A stretch of 52,872 nucleotides of DNA from Pirellulaceae bacterium (GTDB lineage Bacteria > Planctomycetota > Planctomycetia > Pirellulales > Pirellulaceae), in assembly GCA_022448315.1 (NCBI GenBank), contig JAKVCA010000020.1:131107-183978 (forward strand), in the 5' to 3' direction. Of the stretch, positions 42,218 through 48,720 are shown one piece after another. The notes under the pieces were generated by a model that did not search any database, was not told where the DNA came from, and worked only from the letters and a program-made list of their open reading frames with translations. The translations under genes and the position numbers were made by a program. How positions within the stretch are numbered: position 1 is the first letter of the stretch; each line of letters opens with the position of its first letter.

Positions 42218-43972
42218 TTGAAAAGTTTCAAGCAGTTACTCATCGGTATGTGCAAAATTTCCACGTGTCTTCTCTTGCTCACCAGCTTGACTCTCTCACA
42301 AGAGAATTTCGAAAATTCGAAGTTCAAAGGCTTCCTCGACTCGGGTGAGTTTGCCGCAGCCTCGAAGATGGTGGCGCCTTTTAGAGGTTCCCTTGAAGGG
42401 GACCAGCGATTGGCGGAAATCGCCGAGTCGCAACTTGCCCGCGGGGCTTTTCGACAGGCAACCGCGACATTGAATCAGATCCGCTCGGACGACATTTATG
42501 CATCCGCCGCCCAGAACCACCAAGAGCAGCTTTCTAGATACAAGGGGTCTTTCGGAAGTCGTGGTGGAGGTATTCAGGCGGATTTCGACCCTTTGATGGA
42601 ACTCATTCAGCGAACAGTGGAACCCGAATCTTGGGAAGACCTTGGAGGAATGGGGCGCATGTCCCCTTTTGAAGCGGGGGTGCACGTCGACGCAGAGGGC
42701 ATGCTAAAGATGGTGATGGCGGAGAACGGAAGCAACACCCTCGATCGACTTCGAGGACGTGTCCGTCATTCACTTGAAGCGGGCGGTGATCTCGGACCGA
42801 GCAAGCTTAGACTCATTTCACTGCCGCGTCTCGAGCGTGCAGTCCAGCAACGTCAACGCCAGGGACTCCCGCCGACAAACTCCATGAAATACCTCGGAGG
42901 CCTGACCCGAATTCAATATGTATTGGTCTATCCGGAAACTGGCGACCTTGTGATTGCGGGGCCAGCAGAAGATTGGGAACTGGATCCTGCGGGCCGCCCT
43001 GTGGGTATTGAAACCGGACAGCCAACCTTGTGGCTCGACGACTTGGTGAGTTGCTGGCGGGCAGTCCGCGAAGACGATGGAATCTTTGGCTGCTCCATCG
43101 ACCCACTTCCTGAAAATCTGGTGGCGACAAAGAACTTTCTCGCGGACAGTCGCGCGACAGGTCGCGCATGGCGGGAAGGCTTGCGGGAAGCGTTGGGACG
43201 TCAGAAAATCATGATCCACGGGATTGATCCAACAAGTCATGCGGCGCACATCCTGGTCAAGGCTGACTATCACATGAAACGAGTGGGGATGGGGCTTGAA
43301 GCAGGGGTTCTCGGTGTCCCCGACATCCTGACCTTGATGGCATCGCAATCAACATCCACACCGCCTTCAAACCTGATTCGTTGGTGGTTTACACTCGACT
43401 ACGAAACCGTTGAAACCTCAAAAGACAAGCTCGCTTACGCGTTGTCGGGCCCCGGTGTCAAAGTCCTCAGTGAGAACGAGTTTCTTGACGATACAGGTCG
43501 CCGTCGAGCGACAGGCGCGAGCGATCAGCCAACGCGAGAATTTGCGGAGAATTTTACAAACCACTTCGGAGAACTTGCGGAGAAGTACCCTGTATACGCG
43601 GATCTTCGGAATGTTTTTGACGTCGCCATGGTTTGCGGACTGATCGCCCGGGAGGGCCTGGATCGAAAAGTTGAATGGCGGTCACGCTACTTTGAAGTCG
43701 ACTCAGGCTCGACCCTCACTTACCCACTGGAAGTCTGGGCGACACCTCGAGAAGTCAACACGATCATGAATCACAAGATCTGGACCGAAGCGAAGAACGG
43801 ACTCAAACGCCAATCCACCCTGGTTGGCGTCAGTGGTGGTGTCTCTGCCGATATCCGATCGACCTTGGAAAAACTCCCCACAGAGACGGACGAGTATCAA
43901 ACACTCTCGGCACAGAAGACGGCCTCTCGGCCGGGAACATGGGATGCCTCTCAATGGTGGTGGGATCGATAA
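42218..43972 (+). CDS. Secreted DUF1598-type protein
   Basis: The protein has 584 residues with a TTG start supported by the ribosome site at 42206. Residues 3-27 form a signal peptide (a KSFKQ basic start and the core LLLLTSLTLSQ). After a helical, TPR-like N-terminal part (RLAEIAESQLARGAFRQATATLNQI), the main domain contains the MSPFEAGVHVDAEGML, SLPRLERAVQQR, LGGLTRIQYVLVYPETGDLVIAGPAEDW and GILHGI-like segments of the planctomycete DUF1598 family, recognised from memory. The function of the family is unknown. It lies between two zinc-ribbon proteins on the same strand, which may or may not be linked. Confidence 0.82.
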   Translation: MKSFKQLLIGMCKISTCLLLLTSLTLSQENFENSKFKGFLDSGEFAAASKMVAPFRGSLEGDQRLAEIAESQLARGAFRQATATLNQIRSDDIYASAAQNHQEQLSRYKGSFGSRGGGIQADFDPLMELIQRTVEPESWEDLGGMGRMSPFEAGVHVDAEGMLKMVMAENGSNTLDRLRGRVRHSLEAGGDLGPSKLRLISLPRLERAVQQRQRQGLPPTNSMKYLGGLTRIQYVLVYPETGDLVIAGPAEDWELDPAGRPVGIETGQPTLWLDDLVSCWRAVREDDGIFGCSIDPLPENLVATKNFLADSRATGRAWREGLREALGRQKIMIHGIDPTSHAAHILVKADYHMKRVGMGLEAGVLGVPDILTLMASQSTSTPPSNLIRWWFTLDYETVETSKDKLAYALSGPGVKVLSENEFLDDTGRRRATGASDQPTREFAENFTNHFGELAEKYPVYADLRNVFDVAMVCGLIAREGLDRKVEWRSRYFEVDSGSTLTYPLEVWATPREVNTIMNHKIWTEAKNGLKRQSTLVGVSGGVSADIRSTLEKLPTETDEYQTLSAQKTASRPGTWDASQWWWDR

Positions 43973-44227
43973 TTTTGCGCGACCCCCATGGTCGATCCAA
44001 TCCTCAAATTTTGACTGAAGTCACCCGAGCACCCAACCGTTATCAAAGACCAACTCCGTGCAGGATTACCTGATCCACGGGTAAACTCGGATGCAGTTCG
44101 CGGGGGGCTCTGTCCGATAACCTCCACATGTGATCCGTATACGGTTTTTCAAGAGAGTGCGGCTTCTTGGAAATCGACTAGGGATGAATCGTCAATCGCC
44201 TCGGCTCAATCCACCGAAGGTGCCGTC

Positions 44228-44998
44228 ATGTGGTGCTCAAGCTGTCATCAAGATGTTGCCGGCGTTCTGAATTCGGAACGCGGTCGAGGCTATGTTTGCG
44301 GTCGATGTGGCCAACTCATGGGGCAGGTCTCCTCCCTGAAAACCTCGCCTGAAACTTACCGCGAAGAGACATCCGTACCCGAGGCCTTGATCCATACGAT
44401 AGAGCAGTCAAACCAAAGTGATTCCCGTTCTGACGCCTCTCGAGAAGACGGGGACTCGACCGTTTTGCAAACGAATTCCACGGCAAATTCGCTCGCTGCG
44501 CTGGATCGTGAAATTGACGCGTTTGATACCTTGCTGGAAAACTGGCCAGGCGAAGCGTCGAGGTCACAAACGGTGGACGAAGAACCGATCTTCGAGGCCG
44601 TGCAACCGGTTCACCCAAAACCATTTCGAAAGAAGATGGATCCCCTCACGTTATCCGTGGGGACGACACGTCAGCAAGTTCAACGAGTTGAACGACAGGT
44701 ATCTTTGCTCCTGATCGCACAAATCACATTTTTCGTGGGTGCCGCGTTAACTTCGCTTTGGGCCCTCACCCAACCTGAGCAAGGATTAGTCGGTCAACTT
44801 GTCGGCGTCAGCATCACCGGACAGTTAGGCACGCTGTTCTGCCTCGCCTGGTTCGTGTCACGGATGCGAAGCATCCAGCAGAGACTCTCCGACGCGGAAA
44901 TGCTGATCATCAAACAGAAATTGGAGCGGGCGAATCCACCGCAGCTTCAAACCGACGCCGCGTTGAAGGGGCGATCTGGAATCTCAGCCGCTGCATGA
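44228..44998 (+). CDS. Zinc-ribbon membrane protein, unknown function
   Basis: The protein has 256 residues and an ATG start at 44228, preceded by GAAGGTG. The N-terminal ribbon carries Cys3, Cys6, Cys24 and Cys27 (CSSC, CGRC). A disordered, acidic linker (40-145) leads to a short coiled-coil stretch (TRQQVQRVERQ) and two transmembrane helices, about 158-180 (LLLIAQITFFVGAALTSLWA) and 188-210, with a basic, helical C-terminus. The ribbon and linker are presumably cytoplasmic. The combination is not a family I can name. It is in line with the DUF1598-type gene, 255 bp upstream. Confidence 0.78.
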   Translation: MWCSSCHQDVAGVLNSERGRGYVCGRCGQLMGQVSSLKTSPETYREETSVPEALIHTIEQSNQSDSRSDASREDGDSTVLQTNSTANSLAALDREIDAFDTLLENWPGEASRSQTVDEEPIFEAVQPVHPKPFRKKMDPLTLSVGTTRQQVQRVERQVSLLLIAQITFFVGAALTSLWALTQPEQGLVGQLVGVSITGQLGTLFCLAWFVSRMRSIQQRLSDAEMLIIKQKLERANPPQLQTDAALKGRSGISAAA

Positions 44999-45168
44999 TT
45001 CGCCCGTGCCCCTGCGAATCATTCACTCATACCGATAAATGCTCAATCGTCTTGAGAGACTCGAAAATGTTCTCCCGAAGGGGCGTCTGAGGCGTTAACC
45101 TTTTGCCCGGCAAGTCAAATGCAGGCCCAATACCGCGCATTAAGTTAAATTCGCGGTGATCACAAAGT

Positions 45169-45260
45169 GTTGAAAATGACTTGCATTTTCAACTTTCTCC
45201 TCGGTCGCGGCATTGATGCCGTGTGTCTTTTGCAAGCCCAATTTCTGGGCATTTCGCAAA
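45169..45260. other. Cluster of three predicted hairpins
   Basis: First, GTTGAAAATG (45169-45178) pairs with CATTTTCAAC (45184-45193), perfect over 10 bp. Second, CGGCA (45208-45212) pairs with TGCCG (45217-45221). Third, TTTGC-AA-GCCCA (45229-45240) pairs with TGGGC-ATTTC-GCAAA (45246-45260), two 5-bp stems with an internal loop. None ends in a convincing T run. Their role is unknown. Confidence 0.55.
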
Positions 45261-45585
45261 CGCTATCAGTTGCTCCTTCAACCTTGACACTCCATTTTAA
45301 ATCTTGAGAATCGGCAAGTGCTGGTGTTCATCAGGAAGGTGAAACTCTAGCAAAAGAAACGCCGCATCGATCTCCAGATTGAATGTCAGGATGTCGCCAG
45401 AGTCGAGGAACGCCAAAGGCGACATGCTTGAACAAAACAAGAGTCGATGGCTGAAGGAGTCTCATCCATCATGAGCCTCACCGCAATCGCGGGTCAGCCT
45501 CGGTGTCGGCATAACAACGAATTTCATGCCGCTTTGCGAGCAGGCGACATGTTAATCGATACTCAAGATGTGCAGCGATTTCGGC

Positions 45586-45592
45586 AAGGAGG
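45586..45592 (+). promoter_or_regulatory. Ribosome binding site of the MurE-like gene
   Basis: AAGGAGG ends six bases before the ATG at 45599, which fixes this start. Confidence 0.8.
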
Positions 45593-45598
45593 CCGTAG

Positions 45599-47095
45599 AT
45601 GCATCAACTATCTTCTCCTCATCGACGTATTCGCCTGACGGATTTACCCACGAAGATTCAGGGTTCCGGGATCGACCGATTCGAATTCCATTCCTGTTCC
45701 AGTGACTGGAAACTTTGCCAACCCAACGATCTCTATGTCGCCATTGATCAGGCGCAAGGTGACGGTCACGACCATGTGCGTCAGGCGATCAATCAGGGCG
45801 CCCAAGCCATCCTCGCCGAGCGGATCATTCCTGTCGATGTCCCCGTGTTTTTGACCAGTGACACCCGCGAAGCGTTTGGACATATCTGTCATCAACTTTG
45901 TGATCACCCCACTCGCTCCTTGCAATCCGTCGGCGTGACAGGCACCAGTGGCAAGTCCACCGTCGTGGAAATGCTGGACACCATACTCAACTCGGTAGGA
46001 AAAAACCCACTGCGTGCCACTCGGCAGGATTGGCTTCACGTGTCCGGACAAAAAACTTTAGATCCGATCACCAGTCCCCAAGTTTCGGTGGCACTCTCGG
46101 ACGCCGTCGCGATGGGTAAAAGTCATGTGATTCTGGAAATGCACTCCGAAGAACTCGCCCGTCGAGCATGGTCCGGAGTCCAACTGGATGTGGCGGTTTT
46201 GACTGCTTTGAAAGCTGACTTCCGGGATCTCCACGGTTCGTTTGACAACTATTTACGGGCCAGCGAACGACTGCTTGACCATCTCAAAGACACGGGCTTG
46301 GTGGTGATCGACGCCGACGATCCTCAACTTCGCAAACTCCTCGACAAGCTTCCGTACCCCGCTTTGACCTATGGTATCAAACACGAAGCGGAGATCATGG
46401 GCGAAGTTCTCGAAGAGTCAGCAACTGACCAACTGGTCATGATTCATGCGGGTTGCGACAGCATCCCTGTCCAATTAGCTCGGCCAGGGCAACACTTCTT
46501 GTCGAATGCGCTTGCCGCCACAACATCCGCTTTGGCGGTGGGGGTTGAACTTCTAGAAATCCAGAAGGGGCTTGAAGCTTACAAGCCCGCTGCGGGGATC
46601 TTGGAGACGATCCCTCAAAGTAGAAACTCGGCCCAAGTCTACTTCGACCAGGCCGTATTCCCTGACCGTTTACGTGCAACGCTATCGACACTTCGAAAAC
46701 AGACTTCCGGAAAGCTCTGGTGCTTACTCGAGGTTTCGGAAAAACTTACCTCGCGGCACAGGGCCACGATGGGTTCATTGCTTGAAACCCACGCCCATGG
46801 GGCCGCCATCTCTATCGCCCCCAACGTCGCCGAAGTCGGCTTCGAGGCGATCCATGATGTGATGGACGGCTATGACAACGCGGGCCGCGACATGGTGATT
46901 CCACAACTCGCACGTGCCGTGGACTGGGTACTGGCTCAAGCAGGACGAGGAGACACGATTCTTGTGGCTGCTGACGCCAGTTCCTACTCAGAGACTCTGG
47001 CGGAGCTCAGCCGTTCGATCGCCGCCCCATTTTCGGATGAGAATCCCGAGGCTCCGATAACTCTGAGACTTGATGATTATCGAAATGATTACTGA
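45599..47095 (+). CDS. Mur ligase-family protein, MurE-like with diverged catalytic motifs
   Basis: The protein has 498 residues. The N-terminal domain matches MurE (SDWKLCQPNDLYVAI, GDGHDHVRQAINQGAQAILAE) and the ATP loop is kept as GVTGTSGKST (112-121). From there it diverges: the canonical DHLDYHGT region reads ADFRDLHGS, the carbamylated-lysine position of the NYxxAK segment is Ser (NYLRASERLL), and in the C-terminal domain I find neither the GGDRDxxKR nor the DNPR nor the GKGHE motif (DTILVAADASSYSE stands in the last place). So it is probably a paralogue that does not add diaminopimelate, or is inactive. A true murE must lie elsewhere. The gene overlaps the convergent gene by 7 bp. Confidence 0.85.
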   Translation: MHQLSSPHRRIRLTDLPTKIQGSGIDRFEFHSCSSDWKLCQPNDLYVAIDQAQGDGHDHVRQAINQGAQAILAERIIPVDVPVFLTSDTREAFGHICHQLCDHPTRSLQSVGVTGTSGKSTVVEMLDTILNSVGKNPLRATRQDWLHVSGQKTLDPITSPQVSVALSDAVAMGKSHVILEMHSEELARRAWSGVQLDVAVLTALKADFRDLHGSFDNYLRASERLLDHLKDTGLVVIDADDPQLRKLLDKLPYPALTYGIKHEAEIMGEVLEESATDQLVMIHAGCDSIPVQLARPGQHFLSNALAATTSALAVGVELLEIQKGLEAYKPAAGILETIPQSRNSAQVYFDQAVFPDRLRATLSTLRKQTSGKLWCLLEVSEKLTSRHRATMGSLLETHAHGAAISIAPNVAEVGFEAIHDVMDGYDNAGRDMVIPQLARAVDWVLAQAGRGDTILVAADASSYSETLAELSRSIAAPFSDENPEAPITLRLDDYRNDY

Positions 47096-48720
47096 GGGCT
47101 CGGTTTGAAGCCAGTGAAGTTGATTCCAAAGTCATCCCACTTCTGCTCGCCCTCAGACACTGGCCCACCATCATCAACGCCATTTTGGCCCAAATTATAC
47201 AGGATGAATCCGCGGCCCTGGCGACGGTATTCATAAGGCTGGTCGGAGGCGAAATCCCTCCAACGGAACTCCCTCGCCTTGAGCCTCATGGCTTTGAGGG
47301 ACTCTGGAAATTCACCGGCGTTCGCCCGCTCATCAAAGATCTTGATGGCCAGCGCGGTGACCGCCTGGTCATTGAGATTTCGAGTCGCCGCCTGCTCAAC
47401 CGCGGTTAATGCCGGAAGTAACAGGCTGAATAGCGCGTCGGTAATCAACTCGGTCGACTCTCGGCGAGCTCGCTTCGGAAGCAGGACCCAAGAAGCGAGG
47501 CGAAGCGGATTCTCCGACACTTGTTGCACATTCTCACTTCGTTGTTCAAGTTCTTCCTCGAGCTCGACCAGTCTTTCTCGCCGCTCTTTGGCCGTTGCCG
47601 CGAGATAGGCAACTTCGAGACGATCATAGTAATCGTTGGCGTTGAGTAAAACCTGATTCCAGTCAGGTTTTGCAAACCGCGTCAACTGAGTGAAAACTGC
47701 GGCAAAATTCGGTCCCTGCGAAGGCATCAGGCCCAGTCCGCCCAACTCGTTAATCTTCTCGGAACCTTGTGCCATCATCTGGATCGTATCGACGAACATC
47801 AGCCGCTCCAAAAGCAAGTTGGTGGACAACGACGGCATGGGTCCGAGTTCAGCGACGGCTTCCAACGGTTCGCCAAATTCGTCGAAAGACTCCGGCAGGT
47901 TTTGCAACCAGATCATGGTCGACCGACATGCCATCCCCTCAATCGCGACGCCGATTAAGCCTTCGATAAGAGTCGGACCCTGCGCAATCTTCCTCGCGAG
48001 TCCCCGCATCAACACAATGTCTCGCCAAGCCTCTTTATAGCGTGCCTCGCCGATCTTGAGCGTCACACGACTCCCAAGACCACGGGCGACATTACGTGCT
48101 TCCTGAACCTCCGCAAGCGAAAGCATGATGATGGACTCTCCTTTGGCATCACGAGGAACATACCATCCTGATTTTTGAACCGAGGCGTCGATCCACCGAA
48201 ATCCTGGCTCACATTCGTCCAAGTAGAGTTTAAGATCAGGAAACTCATCTGCTTTCCAGACTCTCGAGGGACAATCCGAAACGTCCTCGCCGAATTGGAG
48301 CATCCGCTGGTCAGACCAACCCTTCTGAGTAGCGAAAAGCCTCACGCTTTTGACGAACTTTTCTGTTTCCGCAGGAATCTCGATCCCGAGTTGCTCGCAC
48401 GCGTACGTCATCTCTTGCCCTTCGGCTCGCCCGCCTACAGCCTTAAGAAAATCGACCGCGGCATTATCTTCAGGCTTCACCCGTGCTTTCAAAAAGTCAT
48501 TAATAGCCCCGCCGACATGCAAGTAGCCGCGTTCATCCAAAGGTGTCGTCAAGACGGTCGTCTCTGGTGAAATCTCGATCTGCGTTTGAGGGGCGTCAGG
48601 CGAGAGAGACTCTTCCGGGTTTTCGAGATTCTCCTGCCCCATCCCTGCGGAATATAAACAGAAACAGGCGGCGAAGAGCAAGCCAGTTTTGGTTTGAATG
48701 GCGTGGGGTCGTATGGACAT
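47089..48720 (-). CDS. Secreted protein of unknown function with a pseudopilin-like C-terminal motif
   Basis: The protein has 543 residues and an ATG start at 48720. Residues 11-29 are a signal peptide (GLLFAACFCLYSAGMGQ). The body is long, mixed and helical with no recognised domain. Residues about 430-455 are strongly hydrophobic/helical, and the end reads DQPYEYRRQGRGFILYNLG followed by QNGVDDGG, resembling the C-terminal segment of GspG-type pseudopilins and many planctomycete secreted proteins, where it often forms a calcium-binding loop. No N-terminal prepilin cleavage site (GFTLxE) is present, so it is not a pilin. It overlaps the MurE-like gene by 7 bp, tail to tail. Confidence 0.75.
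   Translation of the reverse strand: MSIRPHAIQTKTGLLFAACFCLYSAGMGQENLENPEESLSPDAPQTQIEISPETTVLTTPLDERGYLHVGGAINDFLKARVKPEDNAAVDFLKAVGGRAEGQEMTYACEQLGIEIPAETEKFVKSVRLFATQKGWSDQRMLQFGEDVSDCPSRVWKADEFPDLKLYLDECEPGFRWIDASVQKSGWYVPRDAKGESIIMLSLAEVQEARNVARGLGSRVTLKIGEARYKEAWRDIVLMRGLARKIAQGPTLIEGLIGVAIEGMACRSTMIWLQNLPESFDEFGEPLEAVAELGPMPSLSTNLLLERLMFVDTIQMMAQGSEKINELGGLGLMPSQGPNFAAVFTQLTRFAKPDWNQVLLNANDYYDRLEVAYLAATAKERRERLVELEEELEQRSENVQQVSENPLRLASWVLLPKRARRESTELITDALFSLLLPALTAVEQAATRNLNDQAVTALAIKIFDERANAGEFPESLKAMRLKAREFRWRDFASDQPYEYRRQGRGFILYNLGQNGVDDGGPVSEGEQKWDDFGINFTGFKPSPQ

Follow-up and report, generated by a model that had tools for sequence, protein, structure and literature searches.

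A MurE descendant in the Pirellulaceae with its ATP loop kept and its catalytic and substrate motifs lost

The window analysed here, a stretch of 52,872 nucleotides from the genome of a Pirellulaceae bacterium, carries a gene at 45599-47095 (+ strand) whose product has the fold and descent of MurE. Judged by alignment, the catalytic lysine and the DNPR, GGDRD and GKGHE motifs of this protein are gone and its ATP loop is intact. We consider it probable, on sequence evidence, that the protein is a MurE pseudoenzyme which binds nucleotide and has been exapted, much as PAP11 has been in plants.

Results

The gene, its fold and its descent

The reading frame starts with ATG and encodes 498 amino acids, and its ends agree with those given in the initial annotation. 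Six bases 5′ of the start codon lies AAGGAGG (45586-45592, + strand), which resembles a ribosome-binding sequence and may act as one. A scan of 44900-47300 returned one promoter-like element (1.5 in shuffled sequence) and four terminator-like elements (2.3 in shuffled sequence, sd 1.6), and no RNA family exceeded its gathering score in the window.

In Pfam, the protein matches Mur_ligase_M (E 2.5e-30) and Mur_ligase_C (E 2.8e-9) above their cut-offs, and the N-terminal Mur_ligase domain reaches 17.9 bits, just under the 21-bit cut-off. MurE models rank first in NCBIfam, the best at 200.7 bits (NF001126, cut-off 373), and TIGR01085 scores 180.7 bits against a cut-off of 257.3; each of the top MurE models has a curated cut-off above the protein's score (among the first six, these cut-offs run from 257.3 to 1023 bits). 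The top phmmer matches among solved structures are MurE chains and plastid MurE-like chains. An AlphaFold model, for which the window protein was combined with 57 MurE sequences from related loci (pLDDT 87.9, pTM 0.88), has the three-domain MurE fold and superimposes on MurE structures with Z 35-36 over 459-471 residues, for example on 4bub_A (Z 36.4, 459 residues). Pfam, NCBIfam, the model and the tree described below all bear out the homology to MurE that the initial annotation had proposed, and the host is a planctomycete, as it had supposed. FolC, cyanophycin synthetase and MurT belong with the window protein to the Mur-ligase superfamily but differ in that its profile scores for them are lower than those for MurE, which remained best when the profiles of the Mur ligases, FolC and cyanophycin synthetase were compared. 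An identity as FolC or cyanophycin synthetase was rejected on these scores, and the FolC of this genome is a separate gene.

Motifs kept and lost

The alignment set the window protein against 139 relatives, with E. coli MurE as reference (E. coli residues are numbered from Met1, so that Lys224 of the literature is 225 here). Among these relatives, 110 family sequences comprise the window protein and 109 fetched from the 111 other genomes with a match; G068 and G094, the latter a broken frame, were left out. A further 30 rows are the best-scoring MurE matches and so are canonical by choice.

The P-loop GTSGKS (residues 115-120; 45941-45958) conforms to the Walker pattern GXXGK(T/S), and its lysine occurs in 107 of the 110 family members. 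Also kept are Glu180 (46136-46138; E. coli Glu183, Glu in 106/110) and Asp350 (46646-46648; E. coli Asp357, Asp in 102/110), which we take to be the metal-site acid and the ATP-site aspartate, respectively; a role for Arg342 is assumed in the same way. This arginine, in the sequence GR(M/L)E (GRME), is kept by 98 of 110 members but is Ile334 in the window protein and is missing in its two nearest relatives as well. The ATP site of the window protein is therefore only partly kept.

The remaining motifs have changed. DHLDYH reads DFRDLH (residues 207-212; 46217-46234), the carbamylated-lysine position (E. coli 225) is Ser222 (46262-46264), GGDRD reads SEKLT (residues 380-384; 46736-46750), DNPR reads APNV (residues 407-410; 46817-46828) and GKGHE reads ADASS (residues 458-462; 46970-46984), all on the + strand. 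The positions of E. coli T158, T159, S185, Q191 and R193, which we take to be contacts to the sugar-dipeptide, read D, P, H, R and A, and the E. coli letter is kept at them in 30, 41, 66, 15 and 37 of the 110 family members, respectively. According to PMC3829189, the carbamyl-lysine of MurE is thought to position Mg-ATP, and DNPR serves the carboxylate of DAP. The possibility that the motifs had merely shifted was ruled out: the tyrosine and alanine neighbouring the lysine align, and another lysine lies within three columns in only 2 of the 63 lysine-less members. Two claims of the initial annotation, a retained ATP loop and the loss of catalytic and substrate motifs, accordingly held up in the alignment, where the missing motifs are gone and not displaced. 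Set beside the MurE ligase that joins meso-DAP or L-Lys to UDP-MurNAc-L-Ala-D-Glu (E. coli 1e8c, T. maritima 4bub, S. aureus 4c12), the window protein is alike in fold, descent, P-loop, Glu183 and Asp357, but differs in having neither carbamyl-lysine nor DNPR, GGDRD or GKGHE, in its presumed MurNAc-dipeptide contacts, and in having no pathway around its gene.

The same erosion runs through the family. The carbamyl-lysine is kept in 47 of the 110 sequences, His211 in 51, His360 in 12 and Arg390 in 19; the Asp, Asn and Arg of DNPR in 19, 28 and 16; and the His and Glu of GKGHE in 4 and 10. All of these positions, kept and eroded alike, are conserved in 30/30 canonical relatives. Asp, Asn and Arg of DNPR occur together in nine family members, two of which also have the GKGHE Glu. 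P-loop lysine is present in 60 of the 63 lysine-less rows, and in 52 of the 63 the carbamyl-lysine is replaced by L, Q, M, I or V. The neighbouring tyrosine aligns in 66 rows (47 with the lysine, 19 without); some lineages are gapped around the lysine, and so these rows are less certain. The carbamyl-lysine and the four ATP-core residues occur together in 42/110 members, some of which may therefore still carry out ligation. The P-loop lysine is lost in three members (G002, G015 and G101), and nucleotide binding is thus not indispensable everywhere.

The family has also gained a motif of its own, H..LDG, which in the window protein is HDVMDG (residues 419-424; 46853-46870, + strand) and lies shortly after the old DAP loop. 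His at E. coli position 426 is found in 99/110 members and Asp at 430 in 105/110 (0/30 and 1/30 in canonical MurE); the two occur together in 98/110 and in 0/30.

The only murE found in the genome

The genome of the window (5.03 Mb, 126 contigs, completeness 96.95) has only two genes with PF08245 (Mur_ligase_M): the MurE-like gene and a 502-aa gene that NCBIfam identifies as FolC (347.2 bits; cut-off 162.65). A MurF-like profile run over this genome found the MurE-like gene again and no MurF-like gene. In a quick tree that used 10 of the 30 canonical rows, the 110 family sequences form one clade (SH-aLRT 100) within the MurE of the same order.

These results bear on the view, taken in the initial annotation, that the gene is a paralogue beside a canonical MurE, for which motif loss by itself would speak. 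That annotation had itself named the absence of any other murE as evidence against a paralogue, and in this 97%-complete genome no second murE was found. As the genome has only these two Mur_ligase_M genes, there is no resident MurE of which the MurE-like gene could be a paralogue; and because the family copies are monophyletic, of vertical-looking descent, and group inside the true MurE of the order, it is a changed ortholog and no duplicate of a functional murE. We regard the paralogue as almost certainly the wrong reading and have rejected it. Genome content and tree together mark the gene as the murE that the family inherited vertically, in changed form.

Most of the peptidoglycan pathway appears to be missing

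Across 119 genomes of the family, a MurE-like match occurs in 112, with identities down to 22%. MurA, MurC and MurG exceed their curated cut-offs in 0/119, the sub-cut-off MurA matches being taken for putative AroA, and a penicillin-binding transpeptidase was found in one genome, a bin with 9% contamination. PF08245, which also covers MurD, finds two or fewer extra genes in most of the family genomes listed. Extra genes with Mur-ligase-M occur in several family genomes (for example in G046:C43, G052:C1:1297606 and G096:C1:3687884), their frames of some 800-960 aa being comparable in size to cyanophycin synthetase. Of the genomes of the order, 13 have a strong MurE (E < 1e-124), and 10 of these also have a transpeptidase; none of the 34 others does. 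A wider profile search of contigs kept 80 loci, nearly all of them ordinary MurE of other phyla. Most peptidoglycan genes thus appear to be missing from the family, a statement that rests on MurA, MurC, MurG and the transpeptidase.

A MurB-like gene is present in 113 of the 119 family genomes, the window's own included. Twenty MurB-like loci were sampled, and 19 remained (G000:C38:51045-51869, L313, and 18 others among L314-L332) after the second, complete-looking MurB of G114 was dropped. In these 19 copies, Ser or Cys stands at the position of E. coli Ser229 in 4 (15 without) and Glu at that of Glu325 in 2 (17 without), the alignment of this C-terminal Glu being less sure than that of Ser229. 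The copy in the window's own genome has Tyr and Asn at the two positions. Ser or Cys is found at Ser229 in all of 30 MurB relatives from the top of the list for the class, 29 of them in genomes with a transpeptidase match. By eye, the FAD-domain motifs of the MurB-like proteins look kept. The G114 copy that was set aside (L331, G114:C117:21909-25039; L291) lies directly beside a strong MurA-like gene of 358 bits; despite the two genes, neither MurC nor MurG nor a transpeptidase exceeds its cut-off in this genome.

Might the MurE-like protein still serve a cryptic, divergent peptidoglycan pathway? The MurB-like and MurE-like genes have been kept, Jeske et al. (2015; PMC4432640) reported DAP in hydrolysates of Rhodopirellula baltica, and PMC5147048 counts this species among those in which peptidoglycan has been observed. 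Against this stand the lack of any MurA, MurC or MurG over cut-off, the confinement of the transpeptidase to one contaminated bin, and the degraded sites of MurE and MurB themselves. DAP, moreover, is also a precursor of lysine. We therefore consider such a pathway improbable. A pair reading of the two proteins, each keeping its cofactor-binding motifs (the ATP loop in one, the FAD-domain motifs in the other) and both having lost catalytic residues, is consistent with the alignments. We put forward only tentatively, and with more doubt than confidence, that MurE and MurB, kept by planctomycetes after the loss of peptidoglycan, are paired cofactor-binding pseudoenzymes in one non-enzymatic module, for example a nucleotide- or redox-sensing scaffold in envelope growth or budding, and that MurE pseudoenzymes have arisen several times in parallel within the class.

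By profile, a MurF-like gene lies directly 3′ of the MurE-like gene at 22 of 109 loci (for example L088:1783-2244, L073:7480-7956 and L103:4788-5834); none does so in the window. Five of the 22 share four bases with the 3′ end of the MurE-like frame. Domain alignment covered 18 of them (L068, L077, L080 and L101 were left out); among these, the G..GKT loop is kept in one (G019), three reach well into the C-terminal domain, and 17 are truncated or have lost the P-loop. Five MurF-like copies have 132-158 residues and little beyond the N-terminal domain, L068 and L080 being assigned to these by profile search only.

Probable repeated loss, and selection in close pairs

The fewest changes that the tree requires are 2 for the P-loop Lys, 2 for Glu183, 5 for Asp357, 6 for Arg342, 10 for the DNPR Arg, 15 for the carbamyl-lysine and 17 for His211; with branches of support below 95 collapsed, they are 2, 2, 5, 6, 11, 16 and 18, respectively. 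Such counts do not tell loss from regain, but losses are the simpler reading because every canonical row has the lysine. Six further families of the order supplied nine copies whose genomes show no transpeptidase match; among these copies the P-loop Lys, the Glu and the Asp are kept in 9/9 each, the carbamyl-lysine in 1/9 and the DNPR Arg in 0/9. A second tree included the window protein with 24 of the 109 family rows, 11 canonical rows and 20 from other families. In it, three of these nine copies, from families f3 and f8, join the canonical MurE of f8 and stand away from the window's family (supports 93 and 90), and so the loss does not look like a single event. A different pattern of erosion is seen in family f16 (L302-L312) of the same class, with the DNPR Arg in 11/11, the P-loop Lys in 6/11 and the carbamyl-lysine in 6/11.

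Nei-Gojobori dN/dS lies between 0.025 and 0.115 in 17 close pairs, some genomes occurring in two pairs. It is 0.025-0.115 in the eight pairs in which both members lack the lysine, 0.040-0.096 in the eight in which both have it, and 0.041 in the one mixed pair; the low values in lysine-less pairs mean that a function is guarded in lineages without the lysine. The window gene is outside these pairs because its nearest relatives are only 44% identical. Compared with the nearest two, it differs at 0.44-0.45, 0.34-0.36 and 0.66-0.69 of first, second and third codon positions, which, as far as codon positions can tell, is the pattern of a constrained protein.

A decaying gene, about to disappear now that its pathway is lost, would explain the wide spread of sequence, with identities as low as those given above, the lost motifs, the one broken copy (G094) and the many damaged MurF-like neighbours. 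It would not explain why dN/dS is low in 17/17 pairs, why residues have become newly fixed in the family, why the gene persists in 112/119 genomes or why the other full-length matches listed have no internal stop. A decaying pseudogene was rejected on dN/dS and the fixed residues, and we strongly disfavour decay as very improbable.

More weight is due to a working ligase with a new substrate, in which an ATP-activated acyl group would be joined to another amine or amino acid and motif loss would mark a changed specificity. The near invariance of the P-loop, Glu183 and Asp357, the 42 members with both the carbamyl-lysine and the ATP core, the kept C-terminal domain and the fixed H..LDG motif near the old DAP loop all fit such an enzyme. 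Yet the lysine thought to position Mg-ATP is lost in 63/110, mostly to hydrophobic residues or Gln, its roughly 15 changes on the tree have come with no relaxation of dN/dS, and no neighbouring gene points to a substrate. On balance, we think a new-substrate ligase rather unlikely.

Gene neighbourhood

Beside the MurE-like gene in the window lie a DUF1598 gene (42218-43972, + strand), a gene that looks by eye like a zinc-ribbon protein (44228-44998, + strand) and a 543-aa gene (47089-48720, − strand), the last two without a Pfam match. All three have homologs at the nearest relative, G078 (L072; another genus), where the four genes again stand together in a block corresponding to 42218-48720 of the window, with the MurE-like gene inverted onto the opposite strand; a DUF1598 homolog also lies near the G092 copy. 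When ten window neighbours were tested against 109 related loci, the four-gene set was found at no locus other than G078, and the remaining neighbours either have no counterpart at the related loci or match there only widespread families (SDR, GFO/IDH/MocA). The neighbour conservation suggested as a check in the initial annotation extends, for the four genes as a set, to this one relative.

Elsewhere in the family, a gene with HTH_17 and PTS EIIA domains (PtsN-like) lies upstream on the other strand at no fewer than 33 loci (for example L109:4822-5544), though not beside the window copy. A borderline FleQ-domain gene is near the MurE-like gene at 36 family loci or more, and another clade has a Der-like gene (by eye) at a minimum of 14 loci and a uracil-DNA glycosylase at a minimum of 13. 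The counts are lower bounds because the longest non-overlapping frames were picked. As a clue to function, the neighbourhood was set aside, since none of these neighbours gives a mechanism.

Discussion

The ATP loop and acids are kept, the reaction and substrate centres have been lost repeatedly, and selection is unrelaxed; a retained, nucleotide-dependent, non-ligase role best explains this combination. In the exapted pseudoenzyme that we favour, the one surviving murE of the family would have been kept though the rest of the pathway is missing. Its product would no longer make UDP-MurNAc-tripeptide, would bind ATP and Mg fully or in part, and might work with a partner, which it would regulate or scaffold through its surface and a nucleotide-dependent arrangement of its domains. 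That partner may belong to the envelope, to budding or to transcription; the envelope role suggested in the initial annotation is neither strengthened nor weakened by these results. Ile334 in the window copy and the three members without the P-loop Lys count against a strict dependence on ATP. Re-use for another role, which the initial annotation had suggested, remains likely on the residue pattern, dN/dS and the orphan status of the gene.

A known parallel is PAP11. This too is a MurE homolog retained where other Mur genes have been lost, and it has taken on another role, as we propose for the family studied here. Among the sequence matches of the family profile, a plastid-type MurE-like chain ranks second, and the window model superimposes on 8r6s_Q with Z 34.5; a further entry, 8w9z, is presumably also a structure of plastid MurE-like PAP11. 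PAP11-type chains are longer, at 768-774 residues, and carry an additional stretch at the N terminus. PMC12681378 describes PAP11 as one of the subunits of the plastid RNA polymerase, in plant lineages without other Mur genes, reports DNPR or DNPK as kept in most streptophytes, a further difference from the protein described here, and leaves a catalytic role of PAP11 possible in the authors' view.

Orphan murE and murB in Planctomycetia, and exapted Mur enzymes, are already known. What seems new are the residue losses, the H..LDG motif and the repetition of the losses. In the section on these genes, Rivas-Marin et al. (2023; PMC10632474) call murE ‘semi-conserved’ and murB ‘very conserved’ in Planctomycetia and report both as non-essential in Planctopirus limnophila; that section has no account of residue loss, H..LDG or repeated losses. 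A search that covered few subscription journals found no title or abstract reporting that MurE or MurB of planctomycetes has lost catalytic residues, which is weak evidence of novelty. Work on planctomycete envelopes by Mahajan et al. in 2020 may list the presence of murE.

Whether planctomycetes have peptidoglycan has long been disputed, and finding murE in a genome can suggest that a wall is made. Since the motifs are lost, its presence here is not to be taken as that of a working MurE. The protein would be a bacterial parallel to plastid PAP11, and would illustrate one fate of a cell-wall enzyme after loss of its pathway: to be kept under strong selection with its reaction centre erased, and not deleted.
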